Below, piece after piece: positions 6,362-35,005 of a stretch of DNA of 50,452 bases; position 1 is the stretch's first letter; every line of letters starts with the position of its first letter. Origin of the DNA: a virus; IMG/VR virus record IMGVR_UViG_3300042472_000152, positions 1 through 50,452 of that record. One strand, given 5' to 3'. The translations under genes and the position numbers were made by a program. The notes under the pieces were generated by a model, which searched no databases, was not told the origin of the DNA, and saw only the letters and a program-made list of their open reading frames with translations.

Positions 6362-6381
6362 GCGCTGCGTTGGGGCAGCGC
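6362..6381 (+). other. GC-rich hairpin in the leader of the giant gene
   Basis: Arms GCGCTGC (6362-6368) and GCAGCGC (6375-6381) form a perfect 7-bp stem with a 6-nt loop. It is followed by ATTTCTGTT, a weak T-run, and then by the AAGGA ribosome site at 6391. It could be a weak terminator or attenuator for readthrough from upstream, or a stabilising 5' structure. Confidence 0.45.
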
Positions 6382-6402
6382 ATTTCTGTTAAGGACTTTT
6401 AT

Positions 6403-9400
6403 ATGGCGCAAGGCGTTCAACTTCCAGATGGTTCAGCAGTAGCTGTCAGGCCGGGGGAGACGCCCCAAGACGCGTATAACCGCGCCAAGCAAATGTACCC
6501 GGATGCATTTGCCGCCAAAACCCCAGAAGAACAACCCAAGTCTGGGTTTATGCCTGCGCTCAAAGCAGGCTTTTCTTCGCTTAAAGAAGATGTTGCTGGT
6601 CTGGCGGGGCGTGCCGGTATCATGGACTTGCCTGCGGCTGAGAAGTATATAGCCGAGCAGAAAGCCTATCAAAAGAAAACCTTTGCACCAACCCAAGAAA
6701 GCTTTTTAGAAGCCCCCTTTGCAAATATTAAGGAACTGGCTGGCGGCTCATTGCCGTACATGGTGGCTCCGGTATTGGCTGGCGCTGCGGCTCCTGCCGC
6801 CTCTGCACTAGGGGCAGGTGCGGGGCTTGCAACTGCTGCCGGACTGGGCGCTACCGCCCTAACATCTGCGGGGCAGTTCACCGGGTCGAACATATCGCGT
6901 CAGATGGACACCGGCAAGAAGCTGGGCGAGACAGACCTCGGTGCTGCGGCCCTAGCCGCCATCCCCCAAGCTGCGCTGGACACTATCAGTTTGCGCATGA
7001 TCCCCGGCATGGGCAGGCTGTTTGAGGGCGCTGGGCTTAACATCTCCAAAGAAGCAGCGCGGGACTTAGCCAAAGAAGGTTTAAAGAAGACCGCTGCCGA
7101 CTACGTGTTGACTACCGGCAAGACTATGACTGTCGAGGGTCTGACTGAGGCAGGCCAGCAGGTGTTCGAGCGCATGCAGGCGGGTTTGAATCTCACCGAC
7201 CCATCGGCCCGTGCCGAGTACTTTGACAACTTCATCGGCGGCGCAGTGCTTGGTGGCATCTTGGCCCCTGTGGGTCGCCGTGCGGAACGCGGTGCGGAGC
7301 AAGGCCGGTTTGACAAGCAGCAACGTGAAGAACAAAAAGCGCAAGCTGACGCAGCCCGAGTTGAGCAGGAGAAGCTGGACGCCACCACCCTAGCCCAGAA
7401 GCAGACCCCTGAGTATGCGCAACAAGCGGAGAAGGCTTACCGTGATGCCGAAGCGTACAAAGTCAGTCTGCAAGAAAAGATGCACAAAGCCCCCAAGGGC
7501 CAGAAGCTGAACGAAGACCAGAAACAGGACAACCGCGAGACGCAACAGGCGCTTAACGAGCACGCTACGGTGCTCAAAGATGCCAACAAAGAATACCGCC
7601 AGTTCCGCCAGTTCTTGCCAAAAGAGCCAGCCCCGCCGCTTGGAGAGGACACAACCCAGTTTCAGCAGCGGGATATGTTTGGCAACTTGCCTGTGCCCAA
7701 AGCACCGGAGCTTGATCTGCAAGGCGAAGAAATAGGCCGCACTGGAACTGCTGAAGATGTTCTTGCAAGGGAAAAACAAGACAGCTTATATGGCCCAGAC
7801 AGTCGGCAAGCCCAGTTGCAGCAGACGTTCGATATGTACGATGCAACGGTTGGTAACCGGGGTAAAGCTAATGCAGCAGAAACACTATTGGCTGAAAACG
7901 ACCCCCGCCAGCAGGCACGCATGCTGGAGCAATTGGTCGCGCAGTACCAGAACCAGCTACAAGATGCCAGCCCGCAAGAAATCATAGCCCTTGCGCCCCA
8001 ATACAACCAAGCCAACGCAGCGCTGGCAGAGGCACGCAAAGCCGTCGAGGCCATGCCAAAACCTGTGGAAGCGCAGCTTGCCAAGCTACACCAGAAGCTC
8101 GGCGTTGCAAAAGAAAAAGGCGATGTCCCCGCCGCTGCCAAACTATCCCAAAGCATTCTGGACTTGGAGCAACAAGCCGTACCTGTCACGCAACAGCAAA
8201 TTGAAATGCAGCCGTTCAAGTCAACGGTTACTGAGGGTGTTCCGGGGCTAAGTGTGCGCAGGCGTTTAATTGGAAACACGCCGGAAGTAAACCTTGGCGT
8301 TGAAGAGCAAGAGGCAGACCTTGCCGCGCAGCAGGCGCAGGCTGAAGCGCAGTACCTTGCCCAAGGCGAAGACAACGCACGCATTAACAGACTGTATCCA
8401 GAGACAAGCGCACTACAACGTATTGCCCAGCGCCCAACGGGTGCTATCTCTACGTCCCCGCAGTTTGATATGTTTGGTACAGAACCACAAACTGGCGCGT
8501 CTGCGGCAATCAACCAAGTCAAAAAAGGCCTGACCGGCGGCGAGGAGTTACCTACCGCACCTGAAACAAAAGCTCAACAACCCCAACGGGGTGGCCCAGC
8601 GCCGTTCAACTTGTACGCCCGCCAAGAAGGTACAGCCGAGCCGGTAACAGCAGAGTCTTTGCGTGATCGCGTTAACCAACTGCAACTGCGTGAAGATTTA
8701 AGCGACGAGGCGTACGCATTCTTGCGCCGTGCAAACGTAAACATCGGGGATAAAGACACGGCGATTGGCAAAGAAGCCTCCTTACACACTCTGCTCGACG
8801 AGCAGCTTGGCAAAATTGAACGCGGTGAAGAAGGTGTGTATGGTGAGGGAACTCCAACCAAAGCACCGCAAGTTTCCCCGCGTGGTGGCGAAGCCGAGGG
8901 CGCTATGGCCGAAGCATTGCGTGAGTCGGGCGCAGTTCTGCCTTCTTCTATTACTGCACCCGCAACAAGCGTAACAACCCCTACGGCTGCGGAAAGAGTT
9001 AGCAGCACTTTTGGCGGTAAAAAGTACGACCTTAGCAGCAGCGAAGCAGCCCAAGCATTGGCAAAAGCCAGACGCGCCAAGTATGAAGAAGGCGTTGCAA
9101 CAGGGCTTTCGCCAAATGAAGCAGCCCGCCGTGCCAGCTTGGTTACGCAAGAGGAAGCCGTAGAAGGCGTTATGACTGGCGCTGGGCCTACGGCTGTTGG
9201 CGTGCGTGCTCGACCAGAAACAACGTCTGGGATGAACGCTGACCAAGCGCTCAAAGCGGCTATAGCGGCAAACCCTGAAGCAGCGCAGCAAGCCGATGTT
9301 CAAAAAATGGCACGGGAGCTTCAAGCCGCTGGAACAATGCGTGGGCCAACAAGCAAAGCCCAAGCCAAAGCCAAGCCGTTATCCCTACCACGGGAACTGG

Positions 9401-12400
9401 AAACGCATTTGCGGGTAAAAGAAGAACTGGCGCAGGAACAAGACAAGCAACTCCCTTTGTTTAGCGAAGAAGCACTGCCGTCCAAAGCGTTAGTCCGGGC
9501 AACACCGGCTACGTTCCAGCGGTTATTGGACAGTAAGACCGTGCAAGAAATGCGCGACCGCGAACAAGAAATTAAAGACCAGAACAAGCAACTGGAAGAA
9601 GCCAACAAAGTACGTGCGTCAATCTCTGAATTGCAGCAGCAAGTTAAAGAACTTACAAAACGCTACGAAATAACACAAGCAGCTAAAAGCATTTTGGCTA
9701 ATAACGAGGCAGTTGAAACCGCCCTTGCAAAATACGGCAAACTGCAAAGCGACCCATATTTTCTCTCAGTTTTGCAACTTGATGTTGCGTCTAAGTCCGA
9801 GGAACATTCACGCCTTGAGGCCGATATTGCTTCACTGACCAAGATGGTTGAGGCGTTGCCTAAGCAAATTAAGACAACACAGGACAACATTAACAAGGAG
9901 ACGCGTAAAGCCGGTACTCCTAGCGAAGCGCTCAAAGCCAGCAAGGTCAAGATTGAAATTTTGCAACGCCAGCAAAAGGTATTGACCGATACGCTCAACA
10001 AGTTGGAAAACCTGCGTAATACGGCAGCTTCTGTAAAAGCAGCCACAGACCACATTGACACAATGATGGCTGTCATTGCTGCACGCCGTGCGCTCGACAG
10101 CATGCGGGGCAGAGAAGTCTCCCGTGAGCAAGTAGTAAGAGCCCAAACCAATTTGCAAACCGCCGTGTTGGCCCGCCGCGCTGCTGAAGAAAACAGCAAA
10201 GCCAAAGACCAGATGCGTGATGTGCGCGACCGCAGCTACGCTACGGCCCGTAAACGGCAAGAGCTATCAGAGCAACGCACCAAAGCGTTTAACGTCTTAT
10301 CCCAATTACCCGCAACGCAGTATCGCAGGTTGACCCCCGAAGAACGCGGCATCATCGAAACGGTTAACCCCGACGAAGTTAAAGATGCCTTGAAGTATGA
10401 GCGCCAGCTAGCGGGCATGAACGTGAAATCCTTGCAGTTGGAGTTGGGGAAACTTGATAAAGCATCTTATGCGCTTGAGGCAAAGATTAAAGAAGCCAAA
10501 ACCAAGTCACAAGGCTATCTTTCTCCGGGCCAAGAACTAGCCATGTACGGCAAGAAAGGTAGTGTATTTACCAAACCTGCTTTTGTTGGTGTTGAAGGCT
10601 TTATCAAGCAGCAAGCAGAACTGGCTGATAAGCGTGACATGTTAGAAACGGAGCTTGCACGCAAAGAAGCAGCGATGACTCCTATAAGCAAGGGCGCTCG
10701 GGGCGAAGTTGCACCTCGTGAAGTCGCAACCACGCGTGCTGCGGAGCAAGCAGAAATTGACGCCGTTATCGAAGCCACCCAAGAGGCAGATAACGTACGG
10801 CAAAACATTGCAGCGCTTGAGGCGCTGTATAAAGAAGAACAGGATGCAGGCCGCCCCAAGAAAGCGCAAGCCGTTGCACAGGACATTATTAAAGCGCGTG
10901 CTGAGTTGGTAGAAGCAGAAAAAAACATGGGGCGTAGCCAGCGTCGGTACGCTGCGCAGCGTAAGGTAGCGGGTGAACCCAGCAAGCTGCGCACGGGTAC
11001 AGAAGAAAGCAAGGCTATTGCCGGTGTAACTAAGCAGACCATAACTGAGCAACGTGTTGAGCCCAAGGTAAGCACCAAAAAAATTATCAGTTCTGCCAAC
11101 GAGATGGCTGCGGAGAAAATTGCAGCAAGCAAGCCCTTGACCAAAAAAGAAGTTAAGGAACTTACGCTCAAACAAAAAGACGAGCTACAGAAACTAGCGT
11201 TTGATAGGGTGCAGACAACAAGCAGCCAAGTAGCTGATGCACAAGCGCGGGTAGATGCTATCAAGCAAGCAATGACTGACTATGCTGCGGGTAAACGCGC
11301 AGCCCCAATCCAAGCCGCAGCGGTTAAGAAAGCCCAAGACGATCTAGCTGCATACAAAAAATCTAACCAGATTGCCCGCCAACAAGCAGGCATATTAGAG
11401 GACGTTGGTACAGTTTCCAAAAAAGAACAAGCCGCAGAAGATGTACCGGAAGTAAAAGGAACCGAGGTTTCAGGCGCGGTTGGGGATGTTTACAACGAAG
11501 GCCCAATTTCAGACGGAGAAAATGCGCCGAGCAAGTTTTACGTTGCGCGTACCACCACACCGCTATCGGAACAGGCTGTTGAGATGGCGCAGGAAGGGCG
11601 TATCCTTGATTTGGCTGCGGAGCTTGCCAAAAACGGTTCTACCCCGGAGATTCGTGCCGCTGCGGCCAAGCTACAACCTTTGTTGTTGCGCACTAAGTTT
11701 ATCGTTGACGAGGGTGTCAACTACAAAGGCGAGTCGGTAGCCGGTCTGTACAACCCTCGGAACAATGCTATTACGATGCACCCGCAGGGGTTGACTGAAG
11801 AAGATGTGTTGCATGAGATGGGCCACGCAGCCACGGACTACGTGTTGCTAGCAGACCCAGCAAAACTGACGGCAGACCAACGCGCTGCGCGTAAGGAGCT
11901 TGAGGCACTACACACCCGCATCACTAAAAGCAACTTGTTTAAGGGTGAGCAGGGCATCGACAGTGTGCGCGAGTTCGCCGCAGAGGTTATATCCAATAAA
12001 GACTTCCGCAGCAAGATTGACTCTGTTGGCAAGCCGACAACACTCTTGCAACAGGTGCTGGGCTTTATCAAGCGCATGTTGGGTATGAAGACCGCGATGT
12101 CTAGCAAAGAAGCACAAGCGCTGGTTGACCGCATACTGGCCCCGTCACGCAAGCTGGCGGCTAGCACAACGCCTAGCGTGTTCCGCAAAGGGGTCGAATA
12201 TAAGTCTGACGATGCACTAACAAAACTGGCAAAGAAAGCGGTTGCGCAAGACAAGACGTTTAAAGAACGGGCCGGGTCGCACATTGGTCTTCAGTTTGAG
12301 ATGGCTGCGGCTGACATGCGTGCTGGCGTAATCAAGGCGCTCAACAACGCCATTAAAGACCCAAAGACTATGGGCAGCACTAAGCTGTTTAACCAAGCTA

Positions 12401-14880
12401 TCTTCAGCATCACCGCTGCCGATCAGCACATGGCAACTACGCAGATGTCGTTATCCAATGGCCCACCCAAAATGGTTAAGGATTCCAAAGGGTACTACTC
12501 GGTCTACAGCAGCATGGAAAATGATGCGGGTCAAATATTTGACGCTGTGCAAGACATACCGGATAGCTACGGGGACGCACAAGCCAAGATGGGCGTAGCC
12601 TCGGTGTACATGATTGCGCAGCGTGCGTTAAACAAAGGTTTGAAAAAGCTGGACATTGGCGCTCTGGGTGTTACCGAACAAGAGTTGCAGGACGCAATGG
12701 CGGCAGCAAACGCTGACCCCAAACTTAAAGCAGCGCTGGAGAATGTGCGCAAGAAATACAACGCGTACAACCGGGGCATGATCGAGTGGCTGTCCTCCCC
12801 ACAGGTGGCGGCTATCTCGCAGGCTGATGCCAAGGCATACCTAAAGGACGAGGACTACGTTCCGTACTACCGCGTGCGTGCTGACGGCACGGCTGAGTTG
12901 GTCTTTGGTGGCGAGAAGACGCTGACCATTGGGGACATCCGCCACCAGCCATACCTTGCTGAGCTAAAAGGCGGCGAGGCCAAGATCATGCCTTTGGACA
13001 AGTCCATCATGCGCAACACCATGCTGCTGGTGACCAAGGGCATGAACAACATGGCGATGAAGAACGTAGGCTACGCCATGCAAGCTGCGGGTGATGGCCT
13101 TGGCCCCATAGGCAAGAACGGCAAGCCGACAAACTTGATGCCTATCAATGTTGGTAAAGGCCCAGACCAAGCCAACGTAATCCGCTGGACGCAAGAACCA
13201 GACCCCAACCGTGAAAACGACAAAGGGGATCGCTATCTGCGTGTGGAGACCAATGACACCTTGTTTGGTGGCATCCCTGCCGAACTGATTATTAAGTCAC
13301 TGGACGGCGCTCACTTGACACTGCCTGCGTTCCTCAAGTGGGGCGGCATTGCTGGCGACCTGCTGCGCTCTGGTATTACGCGTACGCCAATCTACCTAGC
13401 CCGTCAGTTGTTCCGTGACCCGTTTGCAGCTACCGCTACTTCTGGCTTGGACTACGGCCCCATTACCGCCATCTTCAAGGCCAACAAAGAGTTTTTGAAA
13501 ATAGCCGCAGGCAAAAGCGAGACCGGCGCTAAGATGATCGAAAAAGGTTTGCTGCAAAGCGGGCTGTTTGAGGGTGATGTTGCAAACATGTCCAAGATTG
13601 CCTTGCAGTTAGCAAGCGGCAAATCGCAAAGCACCATAGACCGCGTGCTTGCCGGAGCCGACAGACTGGCACTGCAAGCCGATGCAGCTACCCGTACGTT
13701 GATCTACGACAACGCCATCAAAAACGGCCTGTCCGAAGCAGAAGCTGACTATGCGGTGCGGGAGTCGATGAACTTCTCCAAGCGCGGGTTGTCGCCCACT
13801 GTGCAGTACGCCAGCCGCATGATACCGTTCTTCAATGCGCAGATACAAGGCTTGAGCGTTCTGGTCAAAGCAGCCACGGGCAACATGCCCGCCGAAGATG
13901 TACTGAAGATTAAGCGTAAGTTTGCCAACAACGCCATGATGCTTACCGGCTTCGGTCTTGCATACGCGATGGCAATGGATGACGATGAGTACTACAAAAA
14001 TGCCAAGCCAAGGGATAGGTACAGCAACTTCTTCGTACCCCTGCCGGGTGTGGATGAGCCGCTCAAGCTACCAATCCCGTACGAGTTCGGTTTCTTCTTC
14101 TCCGCTGGCGTGGCTATGGCGGACGCTATCAAGGGCGAGGTGGACACACCCCAACAACTGCGTGCAATCAAGGACATGTTTGTGGGCGCTATCCCCGGCG
14201 CTAGCAGCAACTTTGTGCCCCAGCTTGTCAAGCCGCTGGCCGAGGTGTATGCCAACAAGAGCTTCTTCAGCGGCACGCCGTTGGAGTCGGCACGACTGGA
14301 GAAACTAGCGCCTGAAGCGCGGTACAACGCCCACACAACAGAAGTTGCTAAGTGGATGGCTACGATGGTTCCGGGGCTCTCGCCTATCCAGATCGAGCAC
14401 ATCGTGTCGGGGTACTTAGGCCAAATACCTTTGATGGTGCTTGCATCAACCAATGAGATGTTCCGCGAAGACAAGGAAGAGCCCACCCGCAAGCTATCAG
14501 AGATGCCGCTAATTGGCAGTTCTTTCCAACGTAAGTACGGCGGTGAGGAAGCCGATGTGGTGTACAAACTAGCCAACGATGCAATGGAAGCCAAGCGCAC
14601 GTTTGACAACTACCGCAAGACCGGCAAGCTTGAAGATGCCAAGGAGTTCCTTGCTGACAACCGCGCCGAGATTATGGTTGCACCGCTGGCAGCGCAGTAC
14701 CAGAAGATTATGGGGGCGCTGCGCAAGCAAGAGGAAGTTATTCGGAACTCCAACGCTTCATCTGACGCCAAGGAAAAACGAATTGATGCCTTGAACGAGC
14801 AGCGCCAGCTACAGTCCGAGCGTTACCTTAAAGCCATCAGGCGGGCCGAGGCGGCAGACGGTAGAACCACACCCCAGTAA
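6403..14880 (+). CDS. Giant polyvalent virion protein with HExxH metallopeptidase motif
   Basis: The reading frame is open from a TTG at 6370, but the ATG at 6403 has an AAGGA site six bases upstream and is preferred, giving 2825 residues. Residues about 110-155 are an Ala/Gly-rich hydrophobic segment. Residues about 1030-1530 are charged coiled coil. A zinc-peptidase motif HEMGH lies at residues 1804-1808, with a downstream REFAAEV that can supply the third ligand. Residues about 2345-2575 (containing NFSKRGLSPTVQYASRMIP and PFFNAQIQG) resemble the LPD38 domain of large polyvalent phage proteins. Such proteins are packaged and injected with the DNA. I infer that this one is ejected early and carries a protease activity. 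It is the last gene of the late arm. Confidence 0.85.
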   Translation: MAQGVQLPDGSAVAVRPGETPQDAYNRAKQMYPDAFAAKTPEEQPKSGFMPALKAGFSSLKEDVAGLAGRAGIMDLPAAEKYIAEQKAYQKKTFAPTQESFLEAPFANIKELAGGSLPYMVAPVLAGAAAPAASALGAGAGLATAAGLGATALTSAGQFTGSNISRQMDTGKKLGETDLGAAALAAIPQAALDTISLRMIPGMGRLFEGAGLNISKEAARDLAKEGLKKTAADYVLTTGKTMTVEGLTEAGQQVFERMQAGLNLTDPSARAEYFDNFIGGAVLGGILAPVGRRAERGAEQGRFDKQQREEQKAQADAARVEQEKLDATTLAQKQTPEYAQQAEKAYRDAEAYKVSLQEKMHKAPKGQKLNEDQKQDNRETQQALNEHATVLKDANKEYRQFRQFLPKEPAPPLGEDTTQFQQRDMFGNLPVPKAPELDLQGEEIGRTGTAEDVLAREKQDSLYGPDSRQAQLQQTFDMYDATVGNRGKANAAETLLAENDPRQQARMLEQLVAQYQNQLQDASPQEIIALAPQYNQANAALAEARKAVEAMPKPVEAQLAKLHQKLGVAKEKGDVPAAAKLSQSILDLEQQAVPVTQQQIEMQPFKSTVTEGVPGLSVRRRLIGNTPEVNLGVEEQEADLAAQQAQAEAQYLAQGEDNARINRLYPETSALQRIAQRPTGAISTSPQFDMFGTEPQTGASAAINQVKKGLTGGEELPTAPETKAQQPQRGGPAPFNLYARQEGTAEPVTAESLRDRVNQLQLREDLSDEAYAFLRRANVNIGDKDTAIGKEASLHTLLDEQLGKIERGEEGVYGEGTPTKAPQVSPRGGEAEGAMAEALRESGAVLPSSITAPATSVTTPTAAERVSSTFGGKKYDLSSSEAAQALAKARRAKYEEGVATGLSPNEAARRASLVTQEEAVEGVMTGAGPTAVGVRARPETTSGMNADQALKAAIAANPEAAQQADVQKMARELQAAGTMRGPTSKAQAKAKPLSLPRELETHLRVKEELAQEQDKQLPLFSEEALPSKALVRATPATFQRLLDSKTVQEMRDREQEIKDQNKQLEEANKVRASISELQQQVKELTKRYEITQAAKSILANNEAVETALAKYGKLQSDPYFLSVLQLDVASKSEEHSRLEADIASLTKMVEALPKQIKTTQDNINKETRKAGTPSEALKASKVKIEILQRQQKVLTDTLNKLENLRNTAASVKAATDHIDTMMAVIAARRALDSMRGREVSREQVVRAQTNLQTAVLARRAAEENSKAKDQMRDVRDRSYATARKRQELSEQRTKAFNVLSQLPATQYRRLTPEERGIIETVNPDEVKDALKYERQLAGMNVKSLQLELGKLDKASYALEAKIKEAKTKSQGYLSPGQELAMYGKKGSVFTKPAFVGVEGFIKQQAELADKRDMLETELARKEAAMTPISKGARGEVAPREVATTRAAEQAEIDAVIEATQEADNVRQNIAALEALYKEEQDAGRPKKAQAVAQDIIKARAELVEAEKNMGRSQRRYAAQRKVAGEPSKLRTGTEESKAIAGVTKQTITEQRVEPKVSTKKIISSANEMAAEKIAASKPLTKKEVKELTLKQKDELQKLAFDRVQTTSSQVADAQARVDAIKQAMTDYAAGKRAAPIQAAAVKKAQDDLAAYKKSNQIARQQAGILEDVGTVSKKEQAAEDVPEVKGTEVSGAVGDVYNEGPISDGENAPSKFYVARTTTPLSEQAVEMAQEGRILDLAAELAKNGSTPEIRAAAAKLQPLLLRTKFIVDEGVNYKGESVAGLYNPRNNAITMHPQGLTEEDVLHEMGHAATDYVLLADPAKLTADQRAARKELEALHTRITKSNLFKGEQGIDSVREFAAEVISNKDFRSKIDSVGKPTTLLQQVLGFIKRMLGMKTAMSSKEAQALVDRILAPSRKLAASTTPSVFRKGVEYKSDDALTKLAKKAVAQDKTFKERAGSHIGLQFEMAAADMRAGVIKALNNAIKDPKTMGSTKLFNQAIFSITAADQHMATTQMSLSNGPPKMVKDSKGYYSVYSSMENDAGQIFDAVQDIPDSYGDAQAKMGVASVYMIAQRALNKGLKKLDIGALGVTEQELQDAMAAANADPKLKAALENVRKKYNAYNRGMIEWLSSPQVAAISQADAKAYLKDEDYVPYYRVRADGTAELVFGGEKTLTIGDIRHQPYLAELKGGEAKIMPLDKSIMRNTMLLVTKGMNNMAMKNVGYAMQAAGDGLGPIGKNGKPTNLMPINVGKGPDQANVIRWTQEPDPNRENDKGDRYLRVETNDTLFGGIPAELIIKSLDGAHLTLPAFLKWGGIAGDLLRSGITRTPIYLARQLFRDPFAATATSGLDYGPITAIFKANKEFLKIAAGKSETGAKMIEKGLLQSGLFEGDVANMSKIALQLASGKSQSTIDRVLAGADRLALQADAATRTLIYDNAIKNGLSEAEADYAVRESMNFSKRGLSPTVQYASRMIPFFNAQIQGLSVLVKAATGNMPAEDVLKIKRKFANNAMMLTGFGLAYAMAMDDDEYYKNAKPRDRYSNFFVPLPGVDEPLKLPIPYEFGFFFSAGVAMADAIKGEVDTPQQLRAIKDMFVGAIPGASSNFVPQLVKPLAEVYANKSFFSGTPLESARLEKLAPEARYNAHTTEVAKWMATMVPGLSPIQIEHIVSGYLGQIPLMVLASTNEMFREDKEEPTRKLSEMPLIGSSFQRKYGGEEADVVYKLANDAMEAKRTFDNYRKTGKLEDAKEFLADNRAEIMVAPLAAQYQKIMGALRKQEEVIRNSNASSDAKEKRIDALNEQRQLQSERYLKAIRRAEAADGRTTPQ

Positions 14881-31568: not shown

Positions 31569-32972
31569 TTACTCCAAAGGTAGTTCGGTTTGTTCAGGGG
31601 CGTAGAAGTGTGCGTAGTCAATGTGTACTGTCTTGCCGCACTCGGTCTCGTACTGGATGTCCTCCTCCTCTTGAAGGTAGTACTCACCGCTGTGCTCACA
31701 GCACCACACATCATCCTCATGCGCCCACTCGCCATCACGAAGCTGCTCACAGTCACGCGCTAGCTCGTACTCGCCGCTGTGCTCACAGTGCACGCAGTCA
31801 TCTACGGCATGGTACTCGTCCATACGGTCAATGAATATCGCATCATCCATATGCACGTGGTCACCATCGGCAAGCTCCACGATGTCATTGTCCGATAGGT
31901 AGTCAGCATCGTAGCTCTCGTCACCAACACGGACGATGTCGTTGCTGTCGTGTAGGTAATACTGATTGCCATTGCGCCCATACACGTAGGTGTAGTTGTG
32001 GTTGAGACAATGCTCGCACACATGGCAGTCCTCATGCGCACCTGTCCAGTGCCCATCGCCATCACGTATGCGGTCATCGCAGTCAGCGCAAGTCTCACCG
32101 TTTATCGGGTCGGCATCGCCATCCGTGTTGGTGAACTCCCACTCGGCATCGGTGTTGTCATCGGTTATCTCAAAGTCACCGGTCACGTACTTATGTGTGC
32201 CGTCAAGGTAGGGTGCAAGATACCCGCAGTTGTTGTGCACCTTGATTTTCTTGAGCCGATAGCCTGACCACGAGCCGGTCTTGGTGTAGCCCTCATCACG
32301 CAGCCACGCCTCAAGCCTGTCATCGCAGCTTGAGTACCCGCCCGAGCCGCTGCGGTACGAGCGCACAAAGTACTTCTCGTTGCACAGCGCACGGCCTGTG
32401 ACCTGCCCGCTCTCCATGTACAGCGCCATGTGCCAGCCAAGCTCAGGTGAGTACGCCTCATAAGGATGGCGGTCATCGGGGAACTTGTCCCTGTCCTTAG
32501 CCATGCACGAGCTTGGCCCGTGCTCGATGGCGTGCACCATCTCCGATGTGGTGTGCACAAAACTGCATTGCCCCGGCGCATACTTGGCAGCGATGTCGCG
32601 GATGACGTTGCTGGACAGCGTGGGGAAGTGGCGCGTCAGGTACTTGCCCACAGTAGTAACGACCTGCCGATTTGCCTCGCCGGAGCGCTCGTCCCGTGTG
32701 TAGGCAATCTTGTGCTTGCCCTCGTCCGATACGTGAGGCCACTCCAGTACCAACAGATGCCAGTTGGCAGGGTCAGCATCGTAGATAGCGTGCTCGATGG
32801 CCGGATGGCAATCATGGCCTGAATCTATCTGCTCCCGTTGATGCCATGTCCGGCTGTAGTACAGCACATCTCGTAGGCGACGCATTGCATCGAGCAAATT
32901 CCTAGCGCGGTGCGCTGCCCGTTGGCGGTCATAGATAGCCCGCTCCTCTGGTGTCATTCTGCTGAATCTCAT
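31569..32972 (-). CDS. Cys-rich protein with CEHSGEY repeats
   Basis: A 467-residue acidic protein with AGGAGAAG before its ATG. Residues about 170-250 contain SPELGWHMALYMESGQVTG, a block I recall from other phages. Then follow repeated zinc-ribbon-like Cys pairs: CADCDDR, CHVCEHCLNH, CVHCEHSGEYEL and CCEHSGEYYL, several alternating with acidic YLxD-type segments. The C-terminus resembles a tandem zinc-binding array. Its 5' leader carries element B of the pseudoknot-like RNA. A multi-zinc nucleic-acid or protein binder is inferred. No enzymatic residues are recognised. Confidence 0.75.
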   Translation of the reverse strand: MRFSRMTPEERAIYDRQRAAHRARNLLDAMRRLRDVLYYSRTWHQREQIDSGHDCHPAIEHAIYDADPANWHLLVLEWPHVSDEGKHKIAYTRDERSGEANRQVVTTVGKYLTRHFPTLSSNVIRDIAAKYAPGQCSFVHTTSEMVHAIEHGPSSCMAKDRDKFPDDRHPYEAYSPELGWHMALYMESGQVTGRALCNEKYFVRSYRSGSGGYSSCDDRLEAWLRDEGYTKTGSWSGYRLKKIKVHNNCGYLAPYLDGTHKYVTGDFEITDDNTDAEWEFTNTDGDADPINGETCADCDDRIRDGDGHWTGAHEDCHVCEHCLNHNYTYVYGRNGNQYYLHDSNDIVRVGDESYDADYLSDNDIVELADGDHVHMDDAIFIDRMDEYHAVDDCVHCEHSGEYELARDCEQLRDGEWAHEDDVWCCEHSGEYYLQEEEDIQYETECGKTVHIDYAHFYAPEQTELPLE

Positions 32973-32995
32973 GTTTACTTCTCCTAGTTTCTAGT

Positions 32996-33025
32996 GCAGC
33001 GTGAGACGGCACGCTGCGAACCGTT
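32996..33025 (-). ncRNA. Pseudoknot-like leader element B
   Basis: On the minus strand AACGGTTC is followed by GCAGCGTG, loop CCGTCT, and CACGCTGC: an 8-bp stem whose loop can pair (CCGU) with the upstream ACGG. It lies 23 bp before the Cys-rich gene. Element A at 33738 has the same flank and loop but a stem that differs at four compensated pairs. Structure is visible; function is unknown. Confidence 0.6.
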
Positions 33026-33027
33026 TG

Positions 33028-33046
33028 GTGGGACAGCTTGTCTCAC
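33028..33046 (-). repeat. Post-stop hairpin repeat, copy 1
   Basis: On the minus strand GTGAGACA-AGC-TGTCCCAC directly follows the TAA of the gene at 33047. The 8-bp arms carry one A-C mismatch. It belongs to a four-copy family at 34131, 34482 and 34908. Confidence 0.6.
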
Positions 33047-33262
33047 TTAGTCTGAGTTGATATGCATGGACAGGATGTCAGCCCGCGCAGCGTCAAGCTG
33101 GGCGAGGACTTCCTGCCGCGTGCCCTTGTAGCCCATCTTCTTGAGCATCGAGTAGGCTGAGGGCGCTCGACTGCGGGACATCCCTTTGAGTTCGAGCTTG
33201 AGCATGGCACGCAGCGTGAGTAGCTGGGCCATTGGGATTTGGTGGCCGGTGAGTGTGGTCAT
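33047..33262 (-). CDS. Hypothetical early protein
   Basis: A 71-residue basic protein. AGGAGAAACCC lies before the ATG. The sequence begins MTTLTGHQIPMAQLLTLRAM and has a helical GMSRSRAPSAYSMLKKMG then RQEVLAQLDAARADIL. The end of the gene is directly followed by the repeat hairpin. Helical and basic, it may bind nucleic acid; no family recognised. Confidence 0.7.
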   Translation of the reverse strand: MTTLTGHQIPMAQLLTLRAMLKLELKGMSRSRAPSAYSMLKKMGYKGTRQEVLAQLDAARADILSMHINSD

Positions 33263-33495
33263 TGGGTTTCTCCTAGTTTTAATTCACGTTTGGCGCTCTC
33301 GCCTCGGGCGCTTACGGCGTAGTCATTTAGCTCACGCCAGAATTGCAGGCGGCGCTCGACTTTCTCGGGCGTTGTGTATTCGAGTACACCCCAGTCAGTC
33401 CAGCGCAACTCAGAACTGAAGTAGGCTCCGTTGTAGCAGCGCCTTTGCGGGTCGGTGTTTACCTCCCTGCGTTCTCGGTACATGATGGTAGTCAT
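33259..33495 (-). CDS. Hypothetical early protein
   Basis: A 78-residue protein with CAAGGAGAAACC before its ATG. Start MTTIMYRERREVNTDPQRRC and ends with a helical RLQFWRELNDYAVSARGESA. It overlaps the next gene by 4 bp (ATGA). Unknown function. Confidence 0.7.
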   Translation of the reverse strand: MTTIMYRERREVNTDPQRRCYNGAYFSSELRWTDWGVLEYTTPEKVERRLQFWRELNDYAVSARGESAKRELKLGETQ

Positions 33496-33518
33496 TTGGT
33501 TTCTCCTTGGGTTGGTGG

Positions 33519-33719
33519 TTAGCGTGCGCCTGTACCACGGCGTGGCTGGGTGTGTGTTTTAAGTGTGTAGAACTTCCAGTTGTAGGCGTCTATCTCGTCC
33601 TGCTCCCGCGCTTGGCGGAGCTTCTCTTTCTTGGCGTAGTTGGTAGCCGTGGCTATCTCGTCGCGCAGTTTGCGCAGCTTAGCGAGTTCTGTTTCGCGGA
33701 TGTGGGTGAGTTTTAGCAT
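33519..33719 (-). CDS. Small basic coiled-coil protein
   Basis: A 66-residue protein with GGAGAATAAACC before the ATG. MLKLTHIRETELAKLRKLRD and the following ATNYAKKEKLRQAREQDEID form a long charged helix, ending with a basic PRRGTGAR. It is the first gene downstream of pseudoknot-like element A and probably the first gene of this transcript, with a candidate promoter just upstream. Function unknown; a small nucleic-acid binder is possible. Confidence 0.65.
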   Translation of the reverse strand: MLKLTHIRETELAKLRKLRDEIATATNYAKKEKLRQAREQDEIDAYNWKFYTLKTHTQPRRGTGAR

Positions 33720-33737
33720 GGTTTATTCTCCGAAAGT

Positions 33738-33767
33738 GCCAACTGAGACGGCAGTTGGCGAACCGTT
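33738..33767 (-). ncRNA. Pseudoknot-like leader element A
   Basis: On the minus strand AACGGTTC is followed by GCCAACTG, loop CCGTCT, and CAGTTGGC. The 8-bp stem is fully paired and differs from element B at four pairs that remain complementary. The AGGAG-type ribosome site lies about 10 bases after it. Confidence 0.6.
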
Positions 33768-33792
33768 AGACAAATTTCTGCCAAATAGTCAA
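33765..33792 (-). promoter_or_regulatory. Candidate leftward promoter overlapping inverted repeat
   Basis: TTGACT (33787-33792) and TCTAAC (33765-33770) on the minus strand, 16 bp apart, lie just upstream of element A. The -35 sits inside the inverted repeat shared with 34075-34100. If real, its start site would fall inside or just before element A, so the promoter and the pseudoknot reading conflict. Confidence 0.3.
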
Positions 33793-33801
33793 GCTCATAA
33801 C
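33776..33801 (-). repeat. Inverted repeat, minus-orientation copy
   Basis: On the minus strand it reads GTTATGAGCTTGACTATTTG then GCAGAA, and matches the plus-strand copy at 34075-34100 in 24 of 26 bases. Each copy contains TTGACT. Confidence 0.7.
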
Positions 33802-34074
33802 TACAACAGCCTAGCATTTTGCCAAGCAGTTAGCGTTGATTTATAAGGGTTTTTTGCTATATCAGGCAGGTATCTATATGGAAAACGGAAAGCTTCAGGG
33901 AGACAGCGTACGTAAAAACTGTGTAGAACAAAAACAGGGAGAGGAAAAAAGTCTACACACATTATACGTATCACCTATCCTTTTTAGTTTTAAATATATA
34001 TAGATAGATGGATGATATAGGAGAATTCCTATATGTGGCGCGGGTTTAGGCGTGGCAAAAGCGTGTCGGCTGAT

Positions 34075-34100
34075 GTTATGCGCTTGACTATTTGGCAAAA
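34075..34100 (+). repeat. Inverted repeat, plus-orientation copy
   Basis: GTTATGCGCTTGACTATTTG followed by GCAAAA on the plus strand. It faces the copy at 33776-33801 across 273 bp of AT-rich DNA. Confidence 0.7.
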
Positions 34101-34130
34101 GCCGAATTCTACACACTTGTGACATACACA

Positions 34131-34151
34131 GGTGAGACAGGTTGACTCACC
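34131..34151 (-). repeat. Post-stop hairpin repeat, copy 2
   Basis: Minus strand reads GGTGAGTCAACCTGTCTCACC directly after TAG of the gene at 34151. The arms pair with one T-T mismatch around an ACC loop. It is identical over 22 bp (plus-strand 34129-34150) to the copy at 34479-34500. Confidence 0.7.
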
Positions 34152-34336
34152 TAAGGTATTTTTCCTAATGGGGTTGCTAGTGCGTTACCCAAACGCCTAG
34201 CTATATACTCCCGCGCCCATGTGGGCGAGTAGGGGAAAAACCCAGGCGTGCGCAGGGTATGCGCCACGCTTTTGCGCGGCCACAAGTCTTGCCCGCCTAC
34301 TGTTCGGGCTAGTTGACGTTTGATTGCGTTTGACAT
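34151..34336 (-). CDS. Hypothetical small basic protein
   Basis: A 61-residue protein with TGGAG before its ATG. It starts MSNAIKRQLARTVGGQDLWP and is basic, with a WAREYIARRLGNALATPLGK end. It is the second gene of the early arm. The leader upstream of its start has several predicted hairpins. No domain recognised; small basic proteins at this position often bind host machinery. Confidence 0.6.
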   Translation of the reverse strand: MSNAIKRQLARTVGGQDLWPRKSVAHTLRTPGFFPYSPTWAREYIARRLGNALATPLGKIP

Positions 34337-34496
34337 TTTTAATCTCCAGTATGAAACGTGACTGAGCAGTCACAAAGTGCACGAGGCGTGCGCGGAATGC
34401 CCAGCGAGTACAAAAGCTGACTCGCTAGACACAAAACGAAACACCAGCCAGACCCGCTGTCTGTACCGGCGCAGGAATCAGGTGAGACAGGTTGAC
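34337..34496 (-). other. Structured non-coding leader
   Basis: No gene is seen here. Three perfect hairpins lie in 160 bp on the minus strand: GTGACT/AGTCAC with a 4-nt loop (34360-34375 region), GCACG/CGTGC with a 3-nt loop, and AGCGAGT/ACTCGCT with a 10-nt loop. They are between the first and second early genes. This could be RNase III-type processing structures or a small RNA. Confidence 0.45.
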
Positions 34497-34500
34497 TCAC
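34482..34500 (-). repeat. Post-stop hairpin repeat, copy 3
   Basis: Minus strand GTGAGTCAACCTGTCTCAC includes the TGA stop of the gene at 34497 within its first arm. It shares 22 bp with copy 2. Confidence 0.7.
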
Positions 34501-34892
34501 TTAAAGCTGATAGATGCACGCAACTCGGACAGCAACGCGTCAAACTGCTTCTTGGTCAGGCCCGCCTCAATGATGGTGCTGCTAAGCGACTTAACCAGTT
34601 TCTTGTCCACAGCTACTTTGTTGGCCTGCTTGGGTGCTGCATCACCCACGATAGCCTTGATGATGCGGTTGGCCTTGCGCTTTGCCGCACAGAAGCTATC
34701 CGCCCACTCGCCGTCCGCAAACGTCTCGCCGTAGTGCGCCGCCACGATGGGCGCCACGATAGCCTTGACCGCCTCGCGCTCTGCGCCCTTGAGCAGCTTC
34801 TGTAACGTTGTTAACTGCGCCTCGAATGCGTCCCCCGCATTGAGTGCAGCAATGATTGCGTTAGTGATTGCAGTAGTGTTGAACTTAGCCAT
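34497..34892 (-). CDS. Hypothetical early protein (first gene of the left arm)
   Basis: A 131-residue protein using ATG 34892 with AGGAGAAATCAA before it. The frame remains open to 34970, but that start has no ribosome site and would run through the hairpin copy 4. It starts MAKFNTTAITNAIIAALNAG and is Ala/Lys-rich and helical, with FDALLSELRASISFK at the end and PIVAAHYGETFADGEWADSF in the middle. It may be DNA-binding. It would be the first protein made after infection if the promoter at 35147-35177 is the early one. No family named. Confidence 0.75.
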   Translation of the reverse strand: MAKFNTTAITNAIIAALNAGDAFEAQLTTLQKLLKGAEREAVKAIVAPIVAAHYGETFADGEWADSFCAAKRKANRIIKAIVGDAAPKQANKVAVDKKLVKSLSSTIIEAGLTKKQFDALLSELRASISFK

Positions 34893-34907
34893 TTGATTTC
34901 TCCTAGG

Positions 34908-34924
34908 TGAGACAGGTTGTCTCA
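34908..34924 (-). repeat. Hairpin repeat, copy 4, in the leader of the first early gene
   Basis: TGAGACA-ACC-TGTCTCA on the minus strand is a perfect 7-bp stem with the same ACC loop as copies 2 and 3. It lies 16 bases before the start of the first early gene, near the AGGAG ribosome site. Confidence 0.6.
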
Positions 34925-35005
34925 GTTGATGCCGTGCAGCAGAGCCATTCCCCACCGCATCGACAACCAAATTTTACTCGAAGGGGTGTTTTTGACCTCT
35001 TTATG

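Follow-up and report, generated by a model that had tools for sequence, protein, structure and literature searches.

Compact H-type pseudoknots, predicted by comparison, form an RNA family in the early-gene leaders of uncultured phages

What is the short element that occurs twice, with different stems, shortly before the ribosome-binding sites of two early genes of an uncultured virus? We addressed this question using the virus record IMGVR_UViG_3300042472_000152, analysed over its whole length of 50,452 nucleotides (hereafter the window). A preliminary description had reported two segments in it, A (33738-33767) and B (32996-33025), and had read them as a pseudoknot-like structured RNA, possibly a riboswitch. 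Both were present at these positions, and their strand is the minus strand. As reverse complements, element A reads AACGGTTC-GCCAACTG-CCGTCT-CAGTTGGC and element B reads AACGGTTC-GCAGCGTG-CCGTCT-CACGCTGC, so that the reported identity of the flanks (AACGGTTC) and of the CCGTCT loops is borne out by the sequence. As had been claimed for early-gene leaders, both elements lie shortly 5′ of a Shine-Dalgarno sequence and an ATG; from the end of the long stem (S2), the start codon is 18 nt away for A and 23 nt for B. The paired motif was found twice in the window and not once in 100 dinucleotide-preserving shuffles of it.

Two details of the proposed fold had to be amended. The stems of A and B differ at four consecutive pairs (C-G/A-T, A-T/G-C, A-T/C-G and C-G/G-C), all of which remain paired as described; however, they are not all G-C/A-T exchanges, as one of them is a G-C flip. 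In the proposed loop-flank pairing, ACGG with CCGT, the three CGG:CCG pairs are conserved among the homologues, but the fourth, A-U, is not. The features of the locus are collected in Table 1.

Table 1. Elements A and B, their parts, and the neighbouring features of the window
Feature	Position	Strand	Remarks
Element A, H-type pseudoknot (predicted)	33738-33766	-	Evidence: sequence, model matches; protein-found homologues of the downstream gene all carry the element
A, S1 (CGG)	33763-33765	-	
A, L1 (TTC)	33760-33762	-	
A, S2 5′ strand (GCCAACTG)	33752-33759	-	
A, S1′ (CCG)	33749-33751	-	
A, L3 (TCT)	33746-33748	-	
A, S2 3′ strand (CAGTTGGC)	33738-33745	-	
Element B, H-type pseudoknot (predicted)	32996-33024	-	Evidence: sequence, model matches, 4/4 protein-found gene-B homologues
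B, S1 (CGG)	33021-33023	-	
B, L1 (TTC)	33018-33020	-	
B, S2 5′ strand (GCAGCGTG)	33010-33017	-	
B, S1′ (CCG)	33007-33009	-	
B, L3 (TCT)	33004-33006	-	
B, S2 3′ strand (CACGCTGC)	32996-33003	-	
Gene A, 66-aa basic early protein (MLKLTHIRETELAKLR...)	33519-33719	-	Downstream of element A
Gene B, 467-aa early protein	31569-32972	-	Downstream of element B; commonest element-downstream gene across the clade
71-aa ORF	33047-33262	-	Immediate upstream neighbour of element B; hairpin 1 follows its stop codon directly
Hairpin 1, GTGAGACA-AGC-TGTCCCAC	33028-33046	-	Adjoins the stop codon of the preceding ORF; separated from S1 of B by 4 nt
P3 mini-hairpin, CTAG-AAA-CTAG	32984-32994	-	Linker of B; 3′ arm abuts and overlaps the Shine-Dalgarno sequence (TAGGAG)
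GTGAGWCA-NNN-TGWCTCAC hairpin copies	33028-33046, 34132-34150, 34482-34500, 34907-34925	-	

The first scan of IMG/VR used the exact pattern AACGGTTCN8CCGTCT, with flank and loop fixed and the stem free, followed by a filter for stem pairing. It returned at least 13 copies outside the window with all eight stem pairs, each of them upstream of an ATG. With further looser or different scans, about 100 non-redundant copies were present among the matches listed, in uncultured phage contigs. An RNA model, R1, built from 43 copies found 1-4 copies in each of 31 contigs, which is a copy number and not a prevalence, because these contigs were picked for holding the motif. On the window, A and B were the only significant matches of this model. 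Element A scored 51.8 bits with model R1 and 48.7 bits with model R2, and element B 55.3 and 54.0 bits, both elements being among the sequences used to build the models. The scans thus yielded far more than the ten homologues with covariation that the preliminary description had named as support, and the assignment to a structured RNA of the H-type pseudoknot kind is strongly supported, with both stems covarying.

Elements A and B belong to an RNA family that is absent from Rfam 15. No Rfam 15 family matched the window at the gathering cut-off, and relaxing the E value to 10 added nothing but a snoRNA match on the other strand, attributable to chance. Among 84,980 bacterial and archaeal species, 16 pattern matches were obtained, none having a convincingly paired stem, and short blastn searches with two versions of the motif against cultured phages gave nothing relevant. 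No significant match was obtained in the cultured or complete-genome terL relatives 023Pt_psg01, DSL-LC04, HTVC027P, HTVC023P and MinM2, nor in Pasto and K66PH128C1, cultured phages outside the clade that have gene-B homologues; the two models used on these genomes would not detect copies of the CAG and CCG classes described below. We found no description of this pseudoknot family in the open-access literature.

Judged from the alignments, the elements are of the H-type pseudoknot class, with two interleaved helices and compensatory changes in both. The family has an S1 of 3 bp, an L1 of 2-3 nt, an S2 usually of 7-8 bp, no spacer between the stems and an L3 of 2-4 nt. In an alignment of 49 rows, 99% of the S2 cells were paired and both-side changes occurred at six of the eight pairs; sliding the S2 partner by 1-3 columns destroyed the pairing. 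The S2 junction pairs, U-A and G-C, were invariant in this alignment, where the search patterns and the selection had themselves imposed some of the constancy (GG/CC of S1; UG/CA). The residues kept across the family are UG...CA at the stem junction, the U that opens L1 and usually the CU that closes L3, again partly fixed by the search patterns.

The outer pair of S1 was CG in 37 of the 49 rows, GC in eight, UA in two and AU in one, and was unpaired in the remaining one. Only CGG/CCG was seen among the first homologues, these letters having been fixed in the scans; a scan with S1 left free gave TGG/CCA in two contigs. In a further scan, C was excluded from the 5′ outer position of S1 and G from its partner, which leaves nine combinations, three of them Watson-Crick. 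The fully stem-paired copies that it returned were all Watson-Crick (GGG/CCC, TGG/CCA and AGG/CCT). When S1 was ignored in the scan, it was nevertheless complementary in 71/71 copies with a fully paired 8-bp S2. A counter-example is a copy in L286, in which S2 is paired at 7/8 positions and the outer S1 pair is broken. The same phages contain two further S1 classes, CAG/CUG and CCG/CGG, and hence all three S1 positions vary in a compensatory manner within the family, the inner two only between classes that differ in the length of S2 or L1. The CCG/CGG class (contigs L301, L307 and L409) has an S2 of 6-7 bp and an L1 of 1-2 nt and comes in several copies per phage; in L301 and L307 it stands beside GGG/CCC copies. 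As S1 types are mixed within single genomes (L281, L301, L307 and L159), any factor that reads the element must rely on its shape or its loops. We also observed pseudoknot-like copies before an ATG in L285, L286, L289 and L308, with one or two S2 mismatches or a broken outer S1 pair; these possibly form a diverged branch.

Next, we consider where these elements lie. Out of 28 contigs or records tested, 24 had a terL homologue, and in 24/24 of these the elements were on the strand opposite to terL, about 2-7 kb away. The window itself excepted, these homologues are 50-92% identical to the terminase of the window, which places the terL-bearing contigs in one lineage with it; annotated phage records offer no terL closer than about 52% identity. 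In most copies S2 ends 13-28 nt, and mostly 15-25 nt, before a start codon that has its own Shine-Dalgarno sequence. The distance from the end of the upstream ORF to S1 is usually no more than about 30 nt, and therefore most copies are intercistronic. Element B is one of them, as the stop codon of the 71-aa ORF directly precedes hairpin 1. Because most copies sit between cistrons of the same strand, the element is very probably transcribed. In 11 early regions, H-type pseudoknots preceded 28 starts, as compared with one match in shuffled leaders. When homologues were first sought by protein, all of them (7/7 for gene A and 4/4 for gene B) had the element upstream. In the same window we noticed a 2836-aa ORF (6370-14880, plus strand) with a C-terminal LPD38 domain.

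The genes downstream of the element are early phage ORFs that differ from one another, namely unrelated small ones and one large conserved gene. The latter is the gene-B family, which accounts for 33/36 of the large downstream proteins and is preceded by S1 classes CGG, GGG and CAG. The element stood before 42/46 ORFs of this family, although the way in which the loci were collected biases this figure. Neither gene A nor gene B had a match in Pfam or PHROGs. The C-terminal half of protein B is strongly acidic and has paired cysteines (CxxC...CxxC), and relatives occur in other phages; in the Klebsiella phage K66PH128C1 a peptidase gene follows the gene-B homologue, as in the window. Because of the linkage to gene B, we considered autogenous control by its protein. 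Gene B was also considered as a known RNA-binding regulator, but Pfam, PHROGs and the PDB contained nothing that matched its sequence significantly. The structure predicted for its protein has a mean pLDDT of 72.8, a moderate confidence, and residues 133-240 bear a weak GNAT-like resemblance (best Z 7.3, within the range of unrelated folds). As this is the only such stretch, nothing specific supports control by protein B of its own leader, and the cultured gene-B homologues outside the clade come without the element.

The linker between S2 and the start codon can fold into mini-hairpins of 3-6 bp, which usually reach into the Shine-Dalgarno sequence. Such hairpins of at least 4 bp were present in 71% of 100 linkers and in 12% of shuffled linkers, in a control that shuffles single linkers and leaves the relatedness of the copies in. 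In element B this is P3, while element A has only a 3-bp version of it.

The comparison of homologues establishes fold, place, strand and copy number, and the family as predicted is one of phage-specific compact H-type pseudoknots in early-gene leaders. Since evolution kept the fold while the letters changed, the element is almost certainly a working gene-control element. As the fold adjoins the ribosome site and the mini-hairpin can cover the Shine-Dalgarno sequence, the best explanation appears to be a shape-conserved element that controls translation of the early operon, to which we assign a probability of roughly 0.55. The pseudoknot would be set against the landing site of the ribosome and the 3′ mini-hairpin would fold onto the Shine-Dalgarno sequence, so that access of the ribosome would depend on the state of the RNA. 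The shortness of P3 (3-4 bp) counts against this reading, and so does the ease with which the Shine-Dalgarno bases that it contains find some partners in a pyrimidine-rich linker. The likeliest use of the element would be that of a common operator for one trans-acting factor, from the phage or the host, which would raise or lower the expression of several early genes jointly, because the shape and a few residues are kept while the stems change, and because unlike genes share the element. More tentatively, and at somewhat less than even odds, a single factor may read the one pseudoknot shape before several early cistrons and so set the translation of the whole early set.

The main rival to translation control came from the region upstream of the pseudoknot. 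In half of 112 copies there is a strong hairpin within the 50 nt before S1, compared with 3% of shuffles. Commonly it spans from the preceding ORF's stop codon to a point 2-4 nt short of S1; in some copies lacking it, S1 itself begins 2-10 nt past the stop codon. This recurrent order of stop codon, hairpin, 2-4 nt, pseudoknot, Shine-Dalgarno sequence and start, the hairpin-less copies with S1 close to the stop codon, and the conservation of shape more than of sequence would all fit an mRNA boundary or stability module. The hairpin would guard the 3′ end of one cistron and the pseudoknot the 5′ end of the next, and the polycistronic early transcript would be processed between them, so that each cistron gets its own half-life. 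However, many copies, element A included, retain the pseudoknot where the hairpin is absent or weak. The hairpin sequence also occurs in four copies in the window, all within 33028-34925 (chance expectation 0.03), after stop codons or directly before a Shine-Dalgarno sequence. Three of these (34132, 34482 and 34907) come without a pseudoknot, which makes hairpin 1 a separate element. The close spacing to the Shine-Dalgarno sequence and the P3 hairpin point to initiation as well. Hence we regard a boundary module as possible, at about one chance in a few.

Two other candidate signals in these leaders were rejected. A competing helix that would join GTGAGAC, an arm of hairpin 1, to GTCTCAC in element B was not clearly enriched in the family (mean 5.26 bp, against 4.98 bp in shuffles), and the two alternatives are near equal in energy (-23.0 and -22.0 kcal/mol, computed without the pseudoknot). 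The sequence TTGACTATTTGGCA occurs once per strand, at 33779-33792 (minus) and 34084-34097 (plus), divergently around an A+T-rich stretch, and also upstream of gene A in relatives. As a -35 box upstream of A it was discarded, its distance to the element being too variable among homologues and a promoter there starting transcription inside element A. The single-subunit RNA polymerase domain (PF00940) had no match in the 28 contigs, and none in the control genomes either.

A passive role was also weighed, in which the pseudoknot, without any trans-acting factor, would keep the ribosome-binding site free of upstream pairing or aid the docking of the 30S subunit. Conservation of shape only, several S1 classes per genome and unrelated downstream genes agree with such an insulator or enhancer. 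However, the UG/CA junction and the loop residues are conserved beyond what a roadblock needs (in part through the search patterns), and P3 tends to pair the Shine-Dalgarno sequence and not to free it, so that we consider this role improbable.

Small H-type pseudoknots close to the Shine-Dalgarno sequence, such as preQ1-I and SAM-II, are known aptamers, and P3, overlapping that sequence, could be the expression platform of a metabolite-sensing riboswitch. The hint at a riboswitch in the preliminary description was not supported. Up to four model matches per contig lie before unlike early ORFs, several small and unrelated and one large and conserved, with no metabolic theme, no Rfam family matched even at the lax threshold, and none of the 16 bacterial and archaeal pattern matches was convincing. 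A riboswitch is therefore very unlikely, and the observations agree better with a regulatory or structural role in the early operon. Although inverted repeats can bind dimeric regulators, a DNA-level operator or cruciform, or a chance likeness of two copies, is hardly credible, as S1 pairs across S2, which an operator palindrome does not need, orientation and spacing to the Shine-Dalgarno sequence and start are fixed, and G-U pairs occur on the mRNA strand.

We then compared the family with known systems. Its nearest analogue is the gene 32 operator of T4, T2 and RB69, where an H-type pseudoknot of ~28 nt precedes the ribosome-binding site in the leader of a phage mRNA (PMC535899, PMC3014915). 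According to a review, this is possibly the only viral pseudoknot in translational autoregulation (PMC3014915). The family shares with it an H-type pseudoknot 5′ of the ribosome-binding site, but does not belong to that type. The gene 32 pseudoknot lies ~67 nt upstream, and an unstructured stretch of UUAAA/UAAA repeats, more than 40 nt long, comes after it (PMC535899), whereas here S2 is close to the start and neither A nor B has such a tract. Gene 32 is a single SSB gene with one site per genome, unlike the 1-4 model matches per contig before unlike genes; the extra hairpin at the Shine-Dalgarno sequence and a phage lineage unrelated to the T4-type also set the family apart.

Other likenesses are more distant. 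The preQ1-I and SAM-II pseudoknots are similarly compact, of similar size and near the Shine-Dalgarno sequence, but the family here has no Rfam match and no metabolic genes downstream. Repeated RNA structures also occur in phage early transcripts as the T7 RNase III sites and the HK022 put sites; those are hairpins for processing or antitermination, unlike the pseudoknots here, which are tied to each ribosome-binding site. The initiation region is part of the fold in E. coli rpsO. This gene for ribosomal protein S15 likewise has a pseudoknot operator at its translation-initiation region (PMC3014915), but it is a cellular gene with a single site.

These results add a well-supported RNA family that is absent from Rfam 15, with covariation behind both pseudoknot stems, in phages without a close cultured relative. 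Control of translation by a phage pseudoknot has been known essentially from the T4-type gene 32 (PMC3014915); here it recurs in front of several genes of a single operon and across a whole clade, and can mark the early operons of these phages. As the element is self-contained and of about 30 nt, recognition by shape or by sequence is directly testable with reporters. If a single-factor shape operator holds true, these phages would possess a post-transcriptional regulon based on a pseudoknot.
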